Origin: Pseudomaricurvus alkylphenolicus
Lineage (GTDB): Bacteria; Pseudomonadota; Gammaproteobacteria; Pseudomonadales; Cellvibrionaceae
Assembly (NCBI RefSeq): GCF_011683955.1
Contig: NZ_JAAQPI010000008.1
Location: 62,001-126,000 of the forward strand
DNA length: 64,000 bases
Direction of reading: 5' to 3'
In this document: in pieces, positions 48,496 to 57,121 of the stretch
Position numbering within the stretch: position 1 is the stretch's first letter
How the letters are laid out: the number at the start of each line of letters is the position of its first letter
Position numbers and translations under genes: made by a program
The notes under the pieces: generated by a model
Database searches by the model: none
The model's input: the letters and a program-made list of their open reading frames with translations, nothing else
Told to the model about the DNA's origin: nothing

Positions 48496-49380
48496 TTAAT
48501 AGTTATCCCAGTCGGTTCGAGGATCGGTGGGTTTAAGTTCAGCCGCTTTGAGCAGTTCTACCACCTCCAGCAGACTTTCCGAGTGCAGCGATGAGCTGCT
48601 GTAGCAGGCGTGTACGTCTCGACTGATGCTTTCCATATCTCCCACCTGGTGCAGTCGCGCCTCTTCAAGGTAAGGTTGTACCATTGCTTTTGGCAGGAAC
48701 GCCACGCCGCCGCGGGATAACAAAAACTCCAGAGCGATCTGGCTTTGTGCCGTGTGCAGAACCGGTACGACTGCCTGTGGCAGCAGTTTTGCCTGCTGCA
48801 GATTAAAAGCCGTGCCCCAGTCCACGAACACGTGCCCGATCTTGGCGATATCTTCGAGCTGGGTGTGGGCTCCACTGCTGACCAGCACCAATTCAATTCT
48901 ACCAATACGAGCGCTCGATACCTCTGCCAGCTGGGGAGGGTCCAGGAGAACCATCAAATCCAATCGACCGGCTAACAGGGCCCGGGTTAACTGTTGTGGC
49001 GAAGAGATTTCCGTGCGCAGGTAGAGCCCTGGAATATCGTTGGCCAGCTCCGGCAGCAGTGCTTGCAGAAAGGTGTCCCAAAGATTGGAGGTTCCGCCCA
49101 GCGCCAGTTGTGTCTGGTGCTGCTCCGATACGGCCACGTCCTGAATGGCAACCTGCCAGGATGCGAGAATGTTCTCGGCATGGGGCAGCAGGCGCTCCCC
49201 GGACGGGGTCAGCCGGATATTGTTGCGTTCGCGGGTCAGTAGAGGGACGCCAACGGTATCTTCCAGTTGCTTGATTCTGAAACTGACCGCGGACTGGGTC
49301 AGAAACAGGTTCTCTGCCGCCTGGCCAAAATGGCGGGTGCGTGACACCTCCAGGAAGGTTCTTAAGAGCTCGGTATTCAT
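48496..49380 (-). CDS. hdfR: LysR-family regulator HdfR
   Basis: A 294-residue LysR regulator: N-terminal winged HTH (about 1-62, FLEVSRTRHFGQAAENLFLTQSAVSFRIKQLE) and a substrate-binding domain (about 90-290). The sequence and the divergent maoP neighbour identify HdfR, which in E. coli represses flhDC and activates some metabolic genes. The 108-bp space to maoP holds an AAAATATTTT palindrome (49387-49396) that could be part of a LysR site. Confidence 0.9.
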   Translation of the reverse strand: MNTELLRTFLEVSRTRHFGQAAENLFLTQSAVSFRIKQLEDTVGVPLLTRERNNIRLTPSGERLLPHAENILASWQVAIQDVAVSEQHQTQLALGGTSNLWDTFLQALLPELANDIPGLYLRTEISSPQQLTRALLAGRLDLMVLLDPPQLAEVSSARIGRIELVLVSSGAHTQLEDIAKIGHVFVDWGTAFNLQQAKLLPQAVVPVLHTAQSQIALEFLLSRGGVAFLPKAMVQPYLEEARLHQVGDMESISRDVHACYSSSSLHSESLLEVVELLKAAELKPTDPRTDWDNY

Positions 49381-49488: not shown

Positions 49489-49845
49489 ATGAGTGCAGAT
49501 AACAACAGCTTTGACCAGCAGGGCCGCATATATTGGGGTACCGAGCACTTCCCCTACGGACTTGCCAAAAGTGGACAATTTACGCGCCAGCAGGTCGAGT
49601 TATTGGAGCGGCATGGCTACGCCTACGAGGCACTGGCTAGCGGCGAGCGCACCCCAATTACCCCTGAAGAGAAGTCTTTCCTACAATTTTGCCAAGGCGA
49701 GCAGGAGCCCGACAGCGCTCATGAAAAAGCCTGGGATCGCTATCTCAGGGAAGTGAGCAAAACCGGTATCGTGGTCACCTCTTCGGCCAGCCAGGCCGAT
49801 GCGTCCTCAGGCTACAACGACGCCCTGGACCTGGACGAGCTCTGA
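49489..49845 (+). CDS. maoP: Macrodomain Ori organisation protein MaoP (DUF413)
   Basis: A 118-residue small protein of the DUF413/YifE family. The segment FPYGLAKSGQFTRQQVELLERHG and TPITPEEKSFLQFCQGEQEP are diagnostic. In E. coli MaoP with its site maoS organises the Ori macrodomain and is next to hdfR, as here. ATG 49489 fits; the open frame upstream is not family-like. The C-terminus is acidic. Confidence 0.93.
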   Translation: MSADNNSFDQQGRIYWGTEHFPYGLAKSGQFTRQQVELLERHGYAYEALASGERTPITPEEKSFLQFCQGEQEPDSAHEKAWDRYLREVSKTGIVVTSSASQADASSGYNDALDLDEL

Positions 49846-49928
49846 GCCCAGACGGGCCCGTACCAGGCCCAGCTCCTGTATAAAATTATCTTATCAATGT
49901 TTCAAAACTGTTTCCGGAGGGTGCTGTT

Positions 49929-50966
49929 ATGAAGCTGTGTTTTTTGATGTACCCCTGGGAACGTGTCGAGCCGGACGGTGATTCCACCCTTAGGCTGATT
50001 CACGAGGCGGCTTCCCGCGGGCTGACGGTTGCGATTACGACGCCCAACAACTTGACCGTTCGCGACAGTGTCGCTCATGCATTTTGCAACGTTTTGAAGA
50101 AAACACCCAAAGTGTCCTCGAATGTAGGCTCCTTTTACCAGCGGGCTGAGTTCAAAAGGTGCAAGCTACCGTTGGCCGGTTTTGATGCCATTATCCTGCG
50201 CACCAATCCGCCTCTGGATACTGTGGCACTGAATTTTCTTGATTCGGTGCGCAACGACACCTTTATCATGAACAGTCTGGATGGGCTGCGGGTCGCCAAC
50301 AACAAGCTATATCCGGCTTCCTTTACTGGCGATGCCAGTCGTTATGTGCCGTCCACCCATGTTTCCAAAAGCCGCGAATACCTTGAGCAGGTGTTGCTTG
50401 ATTCGCCCCGTGAAAAAATGATCTTGAAGCCTTTGAATGGCTTTGGTGGCCAGGGCGTCATTGTGGTCGAGAAAAATGCGCGTCAGAATTTCCGGTCTCT
50501 GCTGGATTTCTACATCGGAGCGGAAAACAGTTCTAACTACGTTATCCTGCAAGACTATGTCGACGGTGCCGACGAGGGGGATGTGCGCATCCTGATGCTC
50601 AATGGTGAACCGATTGGCGCCATGAGGCGGGTGCCGGCAGAAGGTGAGTTGCGATCAAACATACATGCCGGAGGACGGGAAAAAAAGCATATCCTCACTC
50701 GCGAGGAGAAGGCATTATGCCGGGCCGTAGGGCCACAGCTTGTGCGTGATGGACTCTATTTTGCCGGACTGGATGTCATCAACGGAAAACTCATTGAGGT
50801 CAATGTGTTAAGCCCGGGAGGCATTACCCGGATAAACAGGCTCAACCGCGTCAAGTTGCAAGCGCAGATCATCGACTTTGTTCAAAATGTGGTGTCAGCA
50901 AAGAATCTGGTGGCTGAGCGCAAGAATGCATTCCGCAAGGCGATTGAAGATGCTGAAATTATCTGA
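49929..50966 (+). CDS. RimK/GshB-like ATP-grasp ligase
   Basis: A 345-residue ATP-grasp ligase with the layout of prokaryotic glutathione synthetase: N-terminal FLMYPWERVEPDGDSTLRLI, nucleotide-binding MILKPLNGFGGQGVIVVE (about 160-178), VILQDYVDGADEGDVRILMLNGEPIG-type central region, and Mg/ATP residues at EVNVLSPGG (290-298). Such enzymes form an amide between a carboxylate and an amine using ATP. The substrate is unknown: no gshA is near, and instead the next gene encodes an amidohydrolase-metallopeptidase fusion that overlaps it by 17 bp. Strong Shine-Dalgarno (GGAGGG) before the ATG. I infer that the two act on the same amino-acid amide; glutathione synthetase proper is the alternative. 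Confidence 0.85.
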   Translation: MKLCFLMYPWERVEPDGDSTLRLIHEAASRGLTVAITTPNNLTVRDSVAHAFCNVLKKTPKVSSNVGSFYQRAEFKRCKLPLAGFDAIILRTNPPLDTVALNFLDSVRNDTFIMNSLDGLRVANNKLYPASFTGDASRYVPSTHVSKSREYLEQVLLDSPREKMILKPLNGFGGQGVIVVEKNARQNFRSLLDFYIGAENSSNYVILQDYVDGADEGDVRILMLNGEPIGAMRRVPAEGELRSNIHAGGREKKHILTREEKALCRAVGPQLVRDGLYFAGLDVINGKLIEVNVLSPGGITRINRLNRVKLQAQIIDFVQNVVSAKNLVAERKNAFRKAIEDAEII

Positions 50967-53025
50967 GGCGGGCATCGTCGAGCGGCTGAGGTCGGGAGAA
51001 CCCTTCGAGGCGACGCTGCTGGATGGATCATTCAGCCTGAAAATTGAGGAGTACGCTCCAGTCATTTGTTCAGCCGTACATGCCGGCGGAAATTTTCGTT
51101 CCTCGTTGCAAACTTACTGTGCCCTAAACGAACAAGAGCGTTACTACGAGGAAGACCCGCACACGGATGAACTGATTCAGTCCATGCCCATCACAATTGT
51201 GGGTCATGATTCGCGCTACGCCTACGATCTCAATCGCCCTCTGGCCAGATGTATTTACTCGAAAGCCTGGGGAAAGGACGTCTGGGGCAAGAAGCTTCCC
51301 GTAAAGGAGCGGCGCCTCAGTACCGAACGACATCGTGCGTTTTATAGAATCCTGGATGTTCTGGTCGAGGTCATTGAAGAGCGTTATGGCGCCTGTCTGG
51401 TCCTGGATCTGCATTCCTACAATTTCCAGCGAATACCCGGCGATACTCCCGACTTTAACCTGGGGGTGGAGCAAATTGATATGGACCGTTGGGCTGGAGT
51501 CGTGTCCCGGTTACAAAAAAACCTGAGTCGAATTCGGGTGCAGGAGCAAACGACCAGGGCGGCCGTTGACGAGGTTTTCTACGGCCGGGGTTATATGATT
51601 TCTCATATTAACAGTCGCTTCGAGAATACTCTGGTGATTCCCATGGAAGTCAAAAAGATTTTTATGGATGAATCAACGGGAACGCTTTACCCATTAGTGT
51701 TGAGTGAGCTGAAACAGGGTTTGAAGCAGAGCTACTCAGATACGGCGGCCTACTTCGCTCGACAATTTACCCGACAGAAGAAAACCCGCCGGTCGGACAT
51801 CTTATCCTCGCAATTGGATTCGGCTCTGTTGAAAGTGGATAAGAAGCTCTATCGGCTGGCCAAGGGTTTGGAGACACTGCAATATATTAATCCAACCAAT
51901 TTATTGCAGGAGCGAAAGCGTTTCCTGGCGAGGAGAGGTAATTATATCCCGTGCTTCCGTTACCGCCCTTTGGATATCGATCCCTATCAGTTTCGGGAGC
52001 AGCTTTATCGTTTGCCGGTTGATGAGATTCGCGATCCGGGGATACAGCAGCTGTATAGAGATGTGGTTGACGGCCTGGCCGCCAAGATCGATCTGCTGGT
52101 AAACGCGGGGCAGCCTGAATTTATCTATAGCTCTCTAAAGTACTATGGCGAACCCAGTGTAGTGGACGAGCGCAATGCACGTTTTTTGCTGCACGCAAGG
52201 CAATTCGAGTCTGAAGAAGAGCCTTCGATTGATGCTGAAGAGCTAGGCCGACGCTTCAAGCTCCAGGCGCAAATGCAGCAGATGCAATGCAGAATTGAGG
52301 TGTCATCCAAACTGGTGGCCGCGGCTATGGTTTCAAACCGCAAGAAAACGGTATACATCAATAAAAGTACTCTGATGTCAGAGCGCCAGGCCGCCGCATT
52401 GATGCATCATGAGTTGGGTGTCCATATGGCAACGACGTTGAATGCCATTTCCCAGCCGCTCAAGGTTTTTTCTTTGGGGCTGCCAGGTAATACCATGACT
52501 CAGGAAGGTTTGGCGATTCTCAATGAGTATCAATCGGGCAACATGCTACTCAGCCGCATGCAGGTGTTGGCATTGAGGGTGCTGGCTGTGCGCGAAATGC
52601 TAGACCATGGAGACTTTCGCCACACTTTTTCCTATCTGCGTGAAGAACAGGGGTTAAGTGATAACGATGCTTTCCAATTGTCAACGCGGGTGCATCGCGC
52701 CGGGGGATTCACCAAGGATTATCTCTACCTGAAGGGTGTGGGTAAGGCGCTGGCACTCAGAAGGCAGGTGAGTCTGGCGCCTCTGTTTGTGGGTAAAACG
52801 GGTTTCGATTATTTGCCGACCATCAGTGAAATGATCGACCGCGGTATTCTCAAGCCACCTGAGTTTCTACCGCAGGGCCTGACTGAACCCAGCCCCGTCA
52901 GTGAGATTCTCGAATATCTGATGGGTGGTATTGAATCCGCAGCAAATAAATTCGACGTCAATGCACGCGAGCCCCTTGCTGTCATTCGACAGCAGTCGGA
53001 AGGGGTGATCCAGGCTATTGCTTGA
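50950..53025 (+). CDS. N-formylglutamate amidohydrolase-MATCAP (DUF1704) fusion
   Basis: A 691-residue protein with two catalytic parts. Residues about 1-290 resemble N-formylglutamate amidohydrolase: HAGGNFRSS, HDSRYAYDLNRPL and VLDLHSYNFQ (His155) are the metal-site motifs. Residues about 320-690 are the DUF1704/MATCAP domain with the zinc motif HELGVH (487-492) and the QEGLA box (518-522, Glu519 as likely third ligand); this family was long annotated as flavohemoglobin-expression-modulating and includes the eukaryotic tubulin detyrosinase MATCAP. No signal peptide, so cytoplasmic. The start at 50950 lies inside the ATP-grasp gene (17-bp overlap). Its end overlaps regA on the other strand by 11 bp. 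The substrate is unknown. Confidence 0.88.
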   Translation: MLKLSEAGIVERLRSGEPFEATLLDGSFSLKIEEYAPVICSAVHAGGNFRSSLQTYCALNEQERYYEEDPHTDELIQSMPITIVGHDSRYAYDLNRPLARCIYSKAWGKDVWGKKLPVKERRLSTERHRAFYRILDVLVEVIEERYGACLVLDLHSYNFQRIPGDTPDFNLGVEQIDMDRWAGVVSRLQKNLSRIRVQEQTTRAAVDEVFYGRGYMISHINSRFENTLVIPMEVKKIFMDESTGTLYPLVLSELKQGLKQSYSDTAAYFARQFTRQKKTRRSDILSSQLDSALLKVDKKLYRLAKGLETLQYINPTNLLQERKRFLARRGNYIPCFRYRPLDIDPYQFREQLYRLPVDEIRDPGIQQLYRDVVDGLAAKIDLLVNAGQPEFIYSSLKYYGEPSVVDERNARFLLHARQFESEEEPSIDAEELGRRFKLQAQMQQMQCRIEVSSKLVAAAMVSNRKKTVYINKSTLMSERQAAALMHHELGVHMATTLNAISQPLKVFSLGLPGNTMTQEGLAILNEYQSGNMLLSRMQVLALRVLAVREMLDHGDFRHTFSYLREEQGLSDNDAFQLSTRVHRAGGFTKDYLYLKGVGKALALRRQVSLAPLFVGKTGFDYLPTISEMIDRGILKPPEFLPQGLTEPSPVSEILEYLMGGIESAANKFDVNAREPLAVIRQQSEGVIQAIA

Positions 53026-53545
53026 CGGGCCGCTTTTGCAGTTTTCGCTGCAGTGTCCGACGATGCATGCCCAGCGCTCTGGCCGTTGCGGAAATATTGC
53101 CGTCGTTTTCAGCCAACACACGCTGAATGTGTTCCCATTCCAGTCGGTTGACGGAGGGGGGCGTCGACTGGATTTCCGCTTCGACATCGCCCTCCTGGCG
53201 GTCAAACGCCTGCAGAATCTCGTCGGCATCCGCCGGTTTACACAGATAGTTGGTGGCGCCCAGTTTTATGGCTTCCACGGCGGTATTGATGCTGGAGTAC
53301 CCGGTTAACATCACTATGTTCATCAGCGGTTGATGCTGTTTGAGTTTTGGAATCAGGGCAAGGCCGGATTCTTGTGCCAACTTTAAGTCCAATACGCAAC
53401 GGTCAATAGAATGTGTTTTGCAATGTTGCAACGCGGTGTCGGAATCCTGTGCCTGTAACACCTCATAACCTCTGCGGCTGAACGCTCTTGCCAGCACCTG
53501 AGTGAGTGCCGGGTCGTCATCGACAATCAACAAGGTCTGGTTCAT
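53015..53545 (-). CDS. regA: RegA/PrrA/ActR-type response regulator
   Basis: A 176-residue response regulator: REC domain (phospho-acceptor Asp53 in CVLDLKL) and a C-terminal Fis-type HTH (NISATARALGMHRRTLQRKL). The Pro-rich linker and this HTH are the marks of the RegA/PrrA/RoxR group, which controls respiration, electron transport and redox genes according to quinone state. It overlaps the RegB-like kinase gene by four bases (ATGA), so they are translated together. Confidence 0.92.
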   Translation of the reverse strand: MNQTLLIVDDDPALTQVLARAFSRRGYEVLQAQDSDTALQHCKTHSIDRCVLDLKLAQESGLALIPKLKQHQPLMNIVMLTGYSSINTAVEAIKLGATNYLCKPADADEILQAFDRQEGDVEAEIQSTPPSVNRLEWEHIQRVLAENDGNISATARALGMHRRTLQRKLQKRPVKQ

Positions 53546-54834
53546 GAGGTCTCCTTAGGACTGTTCAAGGGCAGGTGCAGGGTGGTTTGCACACCTCCCT
53601 GCGGATGGTTTTGCATGTCCAGTTTTCCACCATGGCGATCCAGTGCAGCGCGGGTGAGGAATAAGCCCAATCCTCGCCCCTGGCCTTTGTTGCTGACAAA
53701 CGCTTGCCCCAAGTCCTTTAACCTGTCCGGTTCAATCCCCGGGCCATGGTCCCGAATCGAAAACACCAGATTTTCGCTTGAGCAGTGTGCGTGAACAACA
53801 ATGCCCTTTGGATTGGCGTCGGCGGCATTGTTAAGCAGATTGCTCAGTGACTGCGACAGGGTTGGATGAAAGTGTGATCGGCACTGCTGCGTAGTTTCTT
53901 CGAGGGTAATCTTCGCCTCGACTTCAGGGCGAAGCAATAACCATTCATCAATCACCTGCTGACAAAAATCAAATGCCGTTTCGAGCGGTAAAATGCCATC
54001 CTTGAGTTGTGCCGCACGACCGGTCAGACGTTTGAGACTATCTGCGCAGTGCGAAACCTGATTTTGCAACAGCTGCAAGTCTTCCGAAAGGGCGGGAACC
54101 TCTCGGTAGTCGCTTTCCATTTCTTTGAGCAGGGCTTTGATGGTAGTCAGTGGTGTACCCAGCTCATGTGCTGTTCCCGCTGCCAGTGATGCTACCGCCA
54201 GCAGCTGTTCATCCCTCAATCGGTCTTCCCGCAATTGCGCCAGATCGGCGTCCCTTTGCCTCAGGCTGGCAGCCATCTTGATGACAAAGAATGTAATCAA
54301 CAATGCGCTGAGCAGGAAATTAAACCACATGCCCACTGTGTGGAAACTCAGGGCATCATTGATGGCCTGACCGCCATGGTGATGGCTGGGTGCGATATCC
54401 GGCAGCGGAATACGATAGAAAAACAGGCTGGTGTATAGAAGCAGCGAGGCGATCAGCAACGGCCAGGTCAGGCGCCAGCTTAGCGTCGCCGCAGCAATAC
54501 AGAGCGGAACCAGATAGTAGGATACGAACGGATTGTCGGCGCCACCACCGAAAAACAGCAGCAGGCTGACACCAATAATATCGATCAGCAGTTGCGTGAA
54601 GAACGCGTATTCGGAAACCTTGGGGAAAAAACGCAGCTGCACCAAGGTGGCGATGTTGATCAGGGTCAGCCCCGAGATCACCCAGAGCATGGCGTGATAG
54701 GCCAGCGGCAAGGCCAGTTGCCAATAGCAAAATGCCAGGGTGGCGCACACCACCAACAGAAACAGCCCCCGCACCATCAACAGACGGTGCAGGTTAGACC
54801 GGGGTGGCGAGGTGGCCAGTGAAAAGCTGCTCAT
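53542..54834 (-). CDS. regB: RegB/PrrB/RoxS-type redox sensor kinase
   Basis: A 430-residue sensor kinase with six N-terminal membrane helices (about 15-190), the dimerisation/phosphorylation helix with His223 (AHELGTPLTTI) and an HATPase domain (NLLNNAADANPKG, DHGPGI, GLGLFLTRA). Between helices 3 and 4 the FGGGADNPFVSYY segment holds the quinone-binding GGxxNPF heptapeptide of RegB. A Cys in SHCADSLKRL may match RegB's redox Cys, to be checked by alignment. It probably reads the ubiquinone pool. The TonB receptor is 60 bp upstream on the same strand. Confidence 0.92.
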   Translation of the reverse strand: MSSFSLATSPPRSNLHRLLMVRGLFLLVVCATLAFCYWQLALPLAYHAMLWVISGLTLINIATLVQLRFFPKVSEYAFFTQLLIDIIGVSLLLFFGGGADNPFVSYYLVPLCIAAATLSWRLTWPLLIASLLLYTSLFFYRIPLPDIAPSHHHGGQAINDALSFHTVGMWFNFLLSALLITFFVIKMAASLRQRDADLAQLREDRLRDEQLLAVASLAAGTAHELGTPLTTIKALLKEMESDYREVPALSEDLQLLQNQVSHCADSLKRLTGRAAQLKDGILPLETAFDFCQQVIDEWLLLRPEVEAKITLEETTQQCRSHFHPTLSQSLSNLLNNAADANPKGIVVHAHCSSENLVFSIRDHGPGIEPDRLKDLGQAFVSNKGQGRGLGLFLTRAALDRHGGKLDMQNHPQGGVQTTLHLPLNSPKETS

Positions 54835-54894: not shown

Positions 54895-57030
54895 TTACCA
54901 GTGATAAGTCAGGCCGAGATTGACGCTGCGACCCGTGCCGTACATTCGCTCACCGACAGCCACGTCTTCGTTGCCCATGACGCGATTGTAGCCGGCGAGG
55001 TGATCCTGATAGCTTTTGTCTGCAAGGTTGTCGACGCCGGCGCGCAGTTGCAGCGACTCATTGACGTCGTAGCGTAATCGCAGGTGCACCAATCCATAGC
55101 CACCGGTTTCGGCTTCGCTGTTATAGGTGGAGACTTTATCCTGCTCTCCATAGAGTTCGTTGATCAATTGCACCCGCCACTGGTCCTGATGGTAGTTGAG
55201 AGACAGGCGGTGGTTGAGAGGGGCGATGCGGTAGAGGTCGTCACTGACATCCGCGCGTTTTCCTCGCACATAGCTCAGTTGACCCGATACGGACCACTGA
55301 TCAGAAATATTCACACCATAGCTAAGTTCACCACCATAGAGTTCTGCATCCACATTGTTGTATTGCAGAGGTGGATTACCGCCCCCCATCATATTGGCAA
55401 ACATACCGACAGCATTGTCGATCATCATATTGCCGCTGGCGGCGTAGGGGGTTCCCTGAATGTAGTCCTCGACATCGCGATAAAAAACCTGCAGGGAGGC
55501 GTAGCCGCTGTCCGTTCGCAGGTCGATACCCAGGTTGATTTCATCGGCGGTTTCGCTGTCGAGATCGAGATTGCCGATGTAGGTGTGGCCGTCAGCCAAG
55601 CCACCGGTCGCTTGCATCGGTAACCACAGATAACGCTCTTGATACGAGGGCGCTCTCTGTTTGCTGGAGAGGCTGGCGTTTAAACTGAGCTGGGGGTCAA
55701 TTCGGTAGCCGAGTTTGAATACGAGGTCGCGGTTATTATAGGTTTCGCTGCGATCGGCACCATTGAATGCCGTTGCCAGCATGCCGGCCATATTGGTCAT
55801 CATGGTCATGTTCATCATGCCCATCTGGCCCATACCCATAAACGCACTGACTTCAGCGGCGTCCATTTCAACCCGGTTGATACGCGCACCTAGCTCCCAG
55901 GACCAATGGCCCGACTGCTGTTGCCACTCGGCAAACAGGCCATCGATATTGCGCTCAGCGTCATTAAAGTTCTCGATTCTGAACATGGCCATCATGGGGT
56001 TGTAGACATCCGCATCGTGGCGGCTCTCTGAGCGGTCCAAACCAAACCGCAGTTCACCGTTTTCCAGCGGCAGGCTCAGTTGCAGGCGGTGCGCGGTCTG
56101 TTGACCGCTGGCCAGGGTTTCCCTCGGACCCATCATGGGTTGCGGCCTTTGGCCGAAGTTGTCCATGGCGTGAAAGACGTGGGAATAGCTGCTGCTCCAA
56201 TGCAGCTTCAGATCGCCCAGACGCGTACTCACGTTAAAGCTGGCCAGATCACTGTCGATGGCACTGATGTCCATCGGCAGCGCCGGGGTGCCGGCTTCTG
56301 CGGTATTGTTCTTACCGACTCTGAAGTTGGCCTGGGTATCGCCGCGGGCATAACCGTAGAATACATCATGGCGACGACGTTCGTAGGCGGTGGCATTCAG
56401 GTCGCCGTCACCAAACTCACTGTTGTCGGCATGATCGAAGCTGGTGCTGATACCCAGCTTATGGTTCTGATTGGCGCCGGTAACCTGCAGACTGGAGTGG
56501 GAACCTTCGTTATGGCTGGTGTAGTTGGTGTGCAGGCGGGCGTTCAGCTCAAGATCGCTGCCTTCACCGAATTCGCCCCGACTGCTGCCGGCCTCGATAT
56601 GCCCGCCGTAGGTCTCCTGACCCTTACTGACGGAAGCTGGGCCGCGATTGACGGCAAGCTTTTGCAGCAGGCTCGCCGGAATATAGGACAGGGGGCTGTC
56701 CATGGCGTTGGGGCCACCGGTAACCACGCTGGCGCCGTCGATACTCAGGTTGATGCGGTCTCCGCTGAGGCCGCGATATTGGACCAGTGCTGTGAGGCCG
56801 CCATTGCGGTTGGCGGCGGCTCCGGGGAGGGTCTTGAGTGCCTCCGCAGAATCGGCAGCATCCACATCAGTACCCTTTGCAGCGTGGCTGACCGACAACG
56901 GCCACTGGGCCTCTTCGACGGATACCTCCGGCAAATCGCCCGCCCATAACGGGGCGGTGGAGACGGCACCGGCCAGGGCAATGGCGACGGGCAGGGGATG
57001 AGGCCGGAGGCGGTTACAGCGGCGTGACAT
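54895..57030 (-). CDS. Met-rich TonB-dependent receptor, copper type
   Basis: A 711-residue outer-membrane receptor: signal peptide (about 1-30), plug (about 35-150) and a 22-strand beta-barrel ending in Trp (GLTYHW). It looks like the OprC/NosA copper receptor family: residues about 394-420 are extremely Met rich (GMGQMGMMNMTMM) and a second patch (GMFANMMGGG) lies further on, suitable for Cu(I). It would take up copper using TonB energy. Start at 57030 has GGAG in good position; upstream codons look like non-coding. It lies upstream of regB-regA, and the GCGAC-N5-GTCGC site at 57105-57121 is in its promoter region. Confidence 0.88.
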   Translation of the reverse strand: MSRRCNRLRPHPLPVAIALAGAVSTAPLWAGDLPEVSVEEAQWPLSVSHAAKGTDVDAADSAEALKTLPGAAANRNGGLTALVQYRGLSGDRINLSIDGASVVTGGPNAMDSPLSYIPASLLQKLAVNRGPASVSKGQETYGGHIEAGSSRGEFGEGSDLELNARLHTNYTSHNEGSHSSLQVTGANQNHKLGISTSFDHADNSEFGDGDLNATAYERRRHDVFYGYARGDTQANFRVGKNNTAEAGTPALPMDISAIDSDLASFNVSTRLGDLKLHWSSSYSHVFHAMDNFGQRPQPMMGPRETLASGQQTAHRLQLSLPLENGELRFGLDRSESRHDADVYNPMMAMFRIENFNDAERNIDGLFAEWQQQSGHWSWELGARINRVEMDAAEVSAFMGMGQMGMMNMTMMTNMAGMLATAFNGADRSETYNNRDLVFKLGYRIDPQLSLNASLSSKQRAPSYQERYLWLPMQATGGLADGHTYIGNLDLDSETADEINLGIDLRTDSGYASLQVFYRDVEDYIQGTPYAASGNMMIDNAVGMFANMMGGGNPPLQYNNVDAELYGGELSYGVNISDQWSVSGQLSYVRGKRADVSDDLYRIAPLNHRLSLNYHQDQWRVQLINELYGEQDKVSTYNSEAETGGYGLVHLRLRYDVNESLQLRAGVDNLADKSYQDHLAGYNRVMGNEDVAVGERMYGTGRSVNLGLTYHW

Positions 57031-57090
57031 AAGGGGCTCCAGGTTATGGCAATATTGGGTATTCAATCGGGGTCTATGATAGGCAGTTGC

Positions 57091-57121
57091 GTCGCCTGGT
57101 GGCATGCGACACGTTGTCGCA
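57091..57121 (-). promoter_or_regulatory. RegA/PrrA-like operator upstream of the TonB receptor
   Basis: TGCGACACGTTGTCGCA (57105-57121) is a perfect 7-bp inverted repeat around a CGT centre. It fits the GCGNC-Nx-GNCGC pattern of RegA/PrrA sites with a 5-bp spacer, and a further GTCGC half-site lies at 57091-57095. It is about 75 bp upstream of the receptor ATG and 110 bp from the divergent MATE gene. Confidence 0.5.

Follow-up and report, generated by a model that had tools for sequence, protein, structure and literature searches.

Within a 64,000-nucleotide stretch of the Pseudomaricurvus alkylphenolicus genome (contig NZ_JAAQPI010000008.1, positions 62,001 to 126,000; hereafter the window), the gene for an ATP-grasp ligase overlaps a gene encoding a fusion of an N-formylglutamate amidohydrolase-like domain (FGase) with a DUF1704 zinc carboxypeptidase-like domain of the MATCAP family. 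It is near certain that ligase, FGase and MATCAP form a conserved module, and the pairing of ligase and MATCAP is not due to chance. As the best explanation we propose, with moderate confidence, a cytoplasmic operon for making and trimming glutamate-containing peptide bonds at low osmolarity. Its features in the window are as follows.

49916..49920, + strand: GGAGG, ribosome-binding-like (read in the sequence), 8 bases 5' of the ligase ATG
49929..50966, + strand: ATP-grasp ligase of 345 residues, NF009110 (PRK12458) subfamily of the GshB/RimK superfamily
50950..50966, + strand: 17 bp shared by the ligase and fusion genes
50950..53025, + strand: FGase-MATCAP fusion of 691 residues, a zinc amidohydrolase domain joined to a zinc carboxypeptidase-like domain
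51058..51657, + strand: FGase domain (PF05013 match)
51406..51414, + strand: DLH motif of FGase, D153 to H155 of the 691-residue protein
51916..52923, + strand: MATCAP domain (PF08014 match)
52408..52425, + strand: HELGVH, the HExxxH metal and catalytic motif of MATCAP
52501..52515, + strand: QEGLA, the third metal ligand motif of MATCAP

The overlap between 49929-50966 and 50950-53025 is as the initial annotation had described it. The open reading frame of the fusion is listed from a TTG at 50878, and the ATG at 50950, which gives 691 residues and an overlap of exactly 17 bp, is the likely start.

Conservation of the ligase, FGase and MATCAP genes

Of 398 genomes of the phylum, 47 encode MATCAP. 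We read neighbourhoods of about 15 kb around 35 of the 53 MATCAP places found there; an NF009110 ligase lies near MATCAP in 15 of the 35. Sixteen ligases score above the NF009110 cut-off, in 14 of the 398 genomes, and a MATCAP gene adjoins 15 of them; the sixteenth starts 48 bases from a contig end, and no MATCAP was found in its genome. The pairing that the initial annotation had wished to see surveyed around DUF1704 genes is recurrent, and it spans several phyla.

A scan of named genomes, from which the best 80 of 547 confirmed ligase matches were kept and which hence covers close relatives, found the full set at 67 loci, on one strand and without exception in the order ligase-FGase-MATCAP. 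The carriers are Gammaproteobacteria, Bacteroidota, Planctomycetota and Nitrospirota. FGase and MATCAP are fused at 54 of these loci and unfused at 13, all in Flavobacteriaceae, and at 58 of the 67 loci the second gene has its in-frame ATG closest to the ligase stop within the end of the ligase gene. Two further loci among the best 80 have a contig that ends after FGase, and 11 have the ligase alone. No viral copies of the ligase were seen in a scan that reaches close relatives only. Two genome places are each represented twice (L033/L098 and L064/L100), and the counts over 98 loci and 85 rows given below contain these few repeats. Beyond LysR, maoP and lineage-limited neighbours, no other conserved neighbour or gene for a substrate peptide occurs in at least five of the 98 ligase loci, where open reading frames shorter than 80 residues were not clustered.

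We placed 95 MATCAP domains in a tree, from which 18 loci, mostly near-duplicates, were left out by a hand-made list, together with L130 and L135, whose EGLA motif was missed by the script. A solo clade of 23 rows is set off by a 100/100 branch; the other 72 rows form a group made up of six solo domains and every one of the 66 ligase-linked ones. The ligase-linked label requires three changes on this tree, as against 25.2 when labels are shuffled, and none of 500 shuffles was as low; long branches were flagged, and near-copies inflate the label contrast. We rejected the notion that all DUF1704 genes belong to this system, as the solo clade shows no ligase of this kind nearby. Three of the 29 solo MATCAP loci read have a RimK-like gene a few kb away at most, and beyond LysR, maoP and lineage-limited neighbours no further conserved neighbour was found in at least three of the 29, again with open reading frames shorter than 80 residues not clustered. 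At one place (L028, 6971-9931) a solo MATCAP gene is located downstream of, and on the same strand as, a gene whose best NCBIfam model is the glutamate/aspartate symporter GltP (264.7 bits, cut-off 638).

A second architecture, in which FGase is followed by a MATCAP that is longer by about 250 residues at its N terminus and then by a ligase about 30% identical to that of the window, occurs in eight alpha-type loci of the phylum and in Rhizobiaceae. FGase is within reach in five of the eight, and in two of these it lies 1.4-2 kb from MATCAP. This extension aligns to 142 columns of the FGase profile with an hhalign probability of 93.5 (E 2.3e-7) but is missing the DxH motif, and so seems to be a decayed copy of FGase that accompanies a separate, intact one. 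All three genes are present on pSymB of Sinorhizobium meliloti 1021 (at about 1122942-1126743), in the order FGase-MATCAP-ligase, and a scan of 72,556 plasmid records (E 1e-60) found MATCAP relatives in 113 and ligase relatives in 124. At L069 (7158-10110) the neighbour of a MATCAP with the apparently decayed extension is a deacylase of the AstE/AspA type, and no NF009110 ligase was seen in the 15 kb read; FGase may be replaced here by a different zinc deacylase.

Identity of the ligase and of the hydrolase domains

The ligase scores 185-187 bits against PF02955, 80 bits against PF02951 and 73 bits against PF08443, and its 443.6 bits against NF009110 (cut-off 408) make it a member of that subfamily, whose model carries the name glutathione synthetase. 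It shares with bacterial GshB a two-domain ATP-grasp fold and 28-31% identity, but belongs to a separate subfamily marked by a gap in scores: NF009110 scores in the 398 genomes are bimodal, 436-488 bits for the 16 genes and no more than 241 for all others. It also differs from GshB in occurring in genomes that lack the PF04262 gshA. In structural modelling of the kind suggested in the initial annotation, the predicted ligase has the GshB/RimK fold, closest to the small-molecule enzyme GshB, and the predicted peptidase has that of human MATCAP.

By sequence and gene content, the ligase is not the ordinary glutathione synthetase that the initial annotation had named as one outcome fatal to its proposal. 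It fails the GshB equivalog TIGR01380 (232 bits, cut-off 299.05), as do four other members scanned (L163, L170, L138 and L063), and it carries SPGG where GshB has the SPTC motif. The source genome has gshA elsewhere, together with a separate gshB-like gene that scores 259 bits against PF02955 as compared with about 187 for the operon ligase. We also surveyed gshA and GshB in 18 ligase carriers chosen across phyla. None of the 14 non-gammaproteobacterial carriers (13 with the full set, one with the ligase alone) has PF04262 gshA or a GshB at or above the TIGR01380 cut-off, several of these being metagenome assemblies of uncertain completeness; a GCS2-type ligase is present in two of them and in none of the other 12. 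Both gshA and GshB are present in all four gammaproteobacterial carriers. Conflicting with TIGR01380, the glutathione synthase model NF003573 is passed by 1.3 bits (273.3, cut-off 272), and of the four other members the Bacteroidota L163 and L170 pass it, at 282.3 and 294 (by 10 and 22 bits), and L138 (268.3) and L063 (204.7) fail; many conserved ligase residues are, moreover, common to the GshB of the source genome. On sequence and gene content we reject glutathione synthesis as the job of the ligase, with this one model in conflict, and the ligase is very likely independent of it.

A parallel with the eukaryotic tubulin tyrosine cycle, drawn in the initial annotation, stands in part. The same two enzyme classes are involved, an ATP-grasp ligase and a MATCAP-family carboxypeptidase (MATCAP/TMCP), but any likeness of the operon ligase to tubulin tyrosine ligase goes no further than function: that family, which we take to be PF03133, is absent among the six Pfam families that the ligase matches at E <=0.001. 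Its fold is not among the 50 best-fold entries listed for the ligase, which does not by itself exclude it. The bacterial system differs further in its added FGase and in being a bacterial operon with no tubulin named.

Both domain calls made for the fusion proved sound. The first domain agrees with FGase in family profile (PF05013, 67.8 bits, cut-off 28.9), fold and metal motifs, and its DLH motif presumably supplies a zinc ligand. The second exceeds the cut-offs of PF08014 (319.9 bits, cut-off 27) and TIGR02421 (371.9 bits), and its profile matches human MATCAP 7z5g with E 3.6e-19. The predicted structures are an N-formylglutamate-amidohydrolase fold and a human-MATCAP fold, with the metal motifs intact. 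All 85 MATCAP rows tested have HExxxH and 80 have EG[LIM]A, a few rows sharing one genome; the FGase motif residues are invariant in 16 FGases picked for alignment, a set that does not include Marinobacterium. In Patiriisocius marinistellae (L167, 9066-9898) the FGase gene is split into two open reading frames, reflecting either a decayed gene or a sequencing error.

Glutamate, low salt and alternative explanations

In the explanation that we prefer, the ligase would activate a carboxylate with ATP and join an amino acid or peptide to give a glutamate-containing product, MATCAP would act as a metallocarboxypeptidase that takes residues off the C-terminal end of this product, and FGase, a zinc amidohydrolase, would free an acyl group from its glutamate end. 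Together the three activities would control how much of a glutamate peptide, or of a glutamate-rich tail, is present as the glutamate pool is rebalanced after dilution. The make-and-trim chemistry is likely, glutamate as the substrate is somewhat better than an even prospect, and an osmotic role is plausible; we infer that the system is cytoplasmic, that its substrate contains glutamate, which way each step runs, and that its role is osmotic.

A physiological pointer is RNA-seq of Photobacterium damselae at 1% versus 3% NaCl, in which A0J47_RS17020 ('GshB') is up 38.4-fold, A0J47_RS17025 ('QEGLA protein') 27.5-fold and RimK 52-fold (PMC10308900). The first two are most likely this operon, because their tags are adjacent on chromosome II, the same adjacency is found in other Photobacterium loci, and the true gshB of P. 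phosphoreum is on another contig than the operon ligase. Four gene families for glutamate modification, K05844 among them, are commoner in brackish than in marine genomes (PMC10219603). There are further links to glutamate, each weak when taken singly. Changing the penultimate glutamate of the tail makes it unusable for animal MATCAP-family enzymes, which also remove poly-glutamate (PMC10499314). An HdfR-like LysR gene is divergent upstream in 33 of the 98 ligase loci, in both architectures (for four alpha-type LysR genes HdfR is the best model, yet below its cut-off), and E. coli HdfR binds the gltBD promoter (PMC2984483). In two genomes of Marinobacterium (L064/L100 and L101, divergent upstream) and in one Oceanospirillales assembly, the operon has a gene of the RimK family next to it.

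RimK-RimB and RloABC handle poly-glutamate, and RloA proteases are redundantly required for hypo-osmotic tolerance (PMC12239564). The RimK-RimB system, which glutamylates S6 and makes poly-alpha-glutamate, differs from the present one in its ligase, since the operon ligase falls below the RimK-family cut-off (76.1 versus 143.4 bits), and in its protease, a retropepsin where here there is a zinc MATCAP with an added FGase. RloA-RloB-RloC of Pseudomonas likewise combines an ATP-grasp enzyme with a protease and would share a hypo-osmotic role and poly-glutamate cleavage; it differs in its secreted aspartic protease, its 7-helix membrane protein and its ATP-grasp family (TIGR02291).

Several observations weigh against this explanation. 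The P. damselae genes are assigned by synteny, not sequence, and that ligase and hydrolases should rise together at low salt is odd, as this would be futile without further control; such co-induction implies that a further control step is needed. The links to RloABC, which lies directly downstream of the ligase system in three loci of a single genus, and to a glutamate/aspartate-symporter-like gene (below its model cut-off), which lies upstream in seven Flavobacteriaceae loci, are narrow. RimK, the family that we take K05844 to denote, is not found above cut-off in eight of 21 ligase-carrying genomes tested, the source genome included, and the latter also has no match to the RimB/Rlo-type protease PF05618; we therefore regard the operon as independent of RimK and of a RimB-type protease, and reject RimK poly-glutamate as an obligatory partner product as a general rule. 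Specificity of the eukaryotic MATCAP, which is 16-19% identical to the bacterial domain, may not be transferable, and replacing the upstream glycine by glutamate (-EEEY) blocked primary-tail trimming by animal MATCAP (PMC10499314).

The distribution of the genes also counts against it. The parts are separable, 10 of the 11 genomes with a ligase-alone locus having no MATCAP at all; six of the 11 are Rheinheimera or Arsukibacterium, and the state of one genome, with masked stretches and a fusion gene elsewhere, is less sure. At L138, L139, L144-L148 and L150 (Rheinheimera, Arsukibacterium and two gammaproteobacterial assemblies) the ligase has no adjacent FGase or MATCAP and the genome has no MATCAP, which argues that the ligase can work alone. 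One Ensifer plasmid locus likewise has the ligase without FGase or MATCAP. A plasmid of Vibrio sp. HDW18, from the mussel Anodonta, carries the converse (L178, 3471-6929), with LysR, maoP and the FGase-MATCAP fusion directly after maoP and no ligase between. In three of the eight alpha-type loci, two of which are at contig ends, no FGase turned up in the vicinity of the ligase, and MATCAP occurs in none of five other genomes of the source genus. In Marinobacterium L064/L100, L101 and L103 the metal-site motifs of FGase are lost or changed, with the MATCAP motifs and ligase intact; a fourth Marinobacterium, L099, has intact FGase motifs.

Two other explanations are unlikely, to much the same degree. 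The first is a reversible modification of protein tails, with the ligase adding an amino acid to a C-terminus or glutamate side chain and MATCAP removing it, in the manner of the tubulin tyrosine cycle or of RimK-RimB acting on ribosomal protein S6. Animal MATCAP acts on protein tails (PMC10499314), and RimK, of the same superfamily, modifies S6 and is co-induced at low salt in Photobacterium. As no further conserved gene encoding a substrate was found, a universal protein is possible. Against it, there is no conserved gene for a protein partner, the closest fold of the ligase is a small-molecule enzyme, and FGase fits an acyl-amino acid better than a protein. The second is a peptide osmolyte or storage peptide, in which the ligase would make a small acylated glutamate di- or tripeptide and the hydrolases recycle it. 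The nearness of the ligase to GshB and the suitability of FGase for acyl-glutamate agree with this, many carriers belong to marine genera, and expression is probably responsive to salinity. However, that expression rises at low and not high salt, TIGR03103, the model for the NAGGN osmolyte dipeptide synthetase, is absent among the ten NCBIfam models matched by the ligase at E <=0.001, and the carriers among the rhizobia are for the most part plant and soil isolates.

A quite unlikely variant would make the system bacterial kin of the tail cycle of eukaryotes: when cells are stressed by dilution, the ligase would cap glutamate-rich peptides or protein tails with a further amino acid, MATCAP would uncap and shorten them, and FGase would free the last acyl-glutamate, shuttling glutamate between free and polymer-bound forms, in which case eukaryotic MATCAP would descend from, or share its origin with, a bacterial glutamate-tail peptidase. 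It is improbable that the operon serves catabolism or salvage, with FGase and MATCAP breaking down formylated or acidic peptides and the ligase putting the freed amino acid to use again: there are two hydrolases to each ligase, and the symporter-like gene of Flavobacteriaceae would fit, but no importer is conserved across phyla, an ATP-using ligase is unusual in a salvage operon, and some lineages keep the ligase alone. Very improbable, on the model scores and gene content set out above, is an additional synthetase for glutathione or a gamma-glutamyl tripeptide whose product the hydrolases would degrade.

Neighbouring genes and database names

The genes flanking the operon in the window are listed here.

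48496..49380, - strand: HdfR-like LysR regulator, divergent, a candidate regulator (NF002946, 242.6 bits, cut-off 240)
49489..49845, + strand: maoP-like DUF413 gene (PF04219), directly upstream of the ligase; the listed open reading frame starts at TTG 49459
53542..54834 and 53015..53545, - strand: RegB/RegA-like pair of sensor kinase and response regulator, downstream, both below the cut-offs of their models

By BLAST, maoP was not seen beside alpha-type or Bacteroidota loci, and we therefore rejected it as a functional part, its position being likely synteny in Gammaproteobacteria. Just upstream of the RegB/RegA-like pair is an open reading frame (54895-57105, - strand) that by eye resembles an outer-membrane receptor and has stretches rich in Met-Gly-Met, which suggests metal (copper?) import under control of the pair. 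The source genome is 8.9 Mb in size; five other genomes of the genus are 4.0-5.7 Mb.

The initial annotation held that this system had not been described, and we found no description of the operon under DUF1704, QEGLA, MATCAP or a pairing of ATP-grasp and N-formylglutamate enzymes in the open-licence PMC literature. The 2009 amidoligase survey by Iyer and colleagues may list this neighbourhood. The database names of the operon genes, 'glutathione synthetase' and 'flavohemoglobin expression-modulating QEGLA protein', are probably misleading. An operon of three activities spans several phyla, and is on pSymB of the laboratory strain S. meliloti 1021, under other names, and at least one transcriptome study calls a probable member that is strongly induced at low salt a glutathione synthetase (PMC10308900). 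The set points to a likely ligase partner for the bacterial MATCAP peptidases and to a physiological condition for them, and the question of what they cut becomes directly testable.

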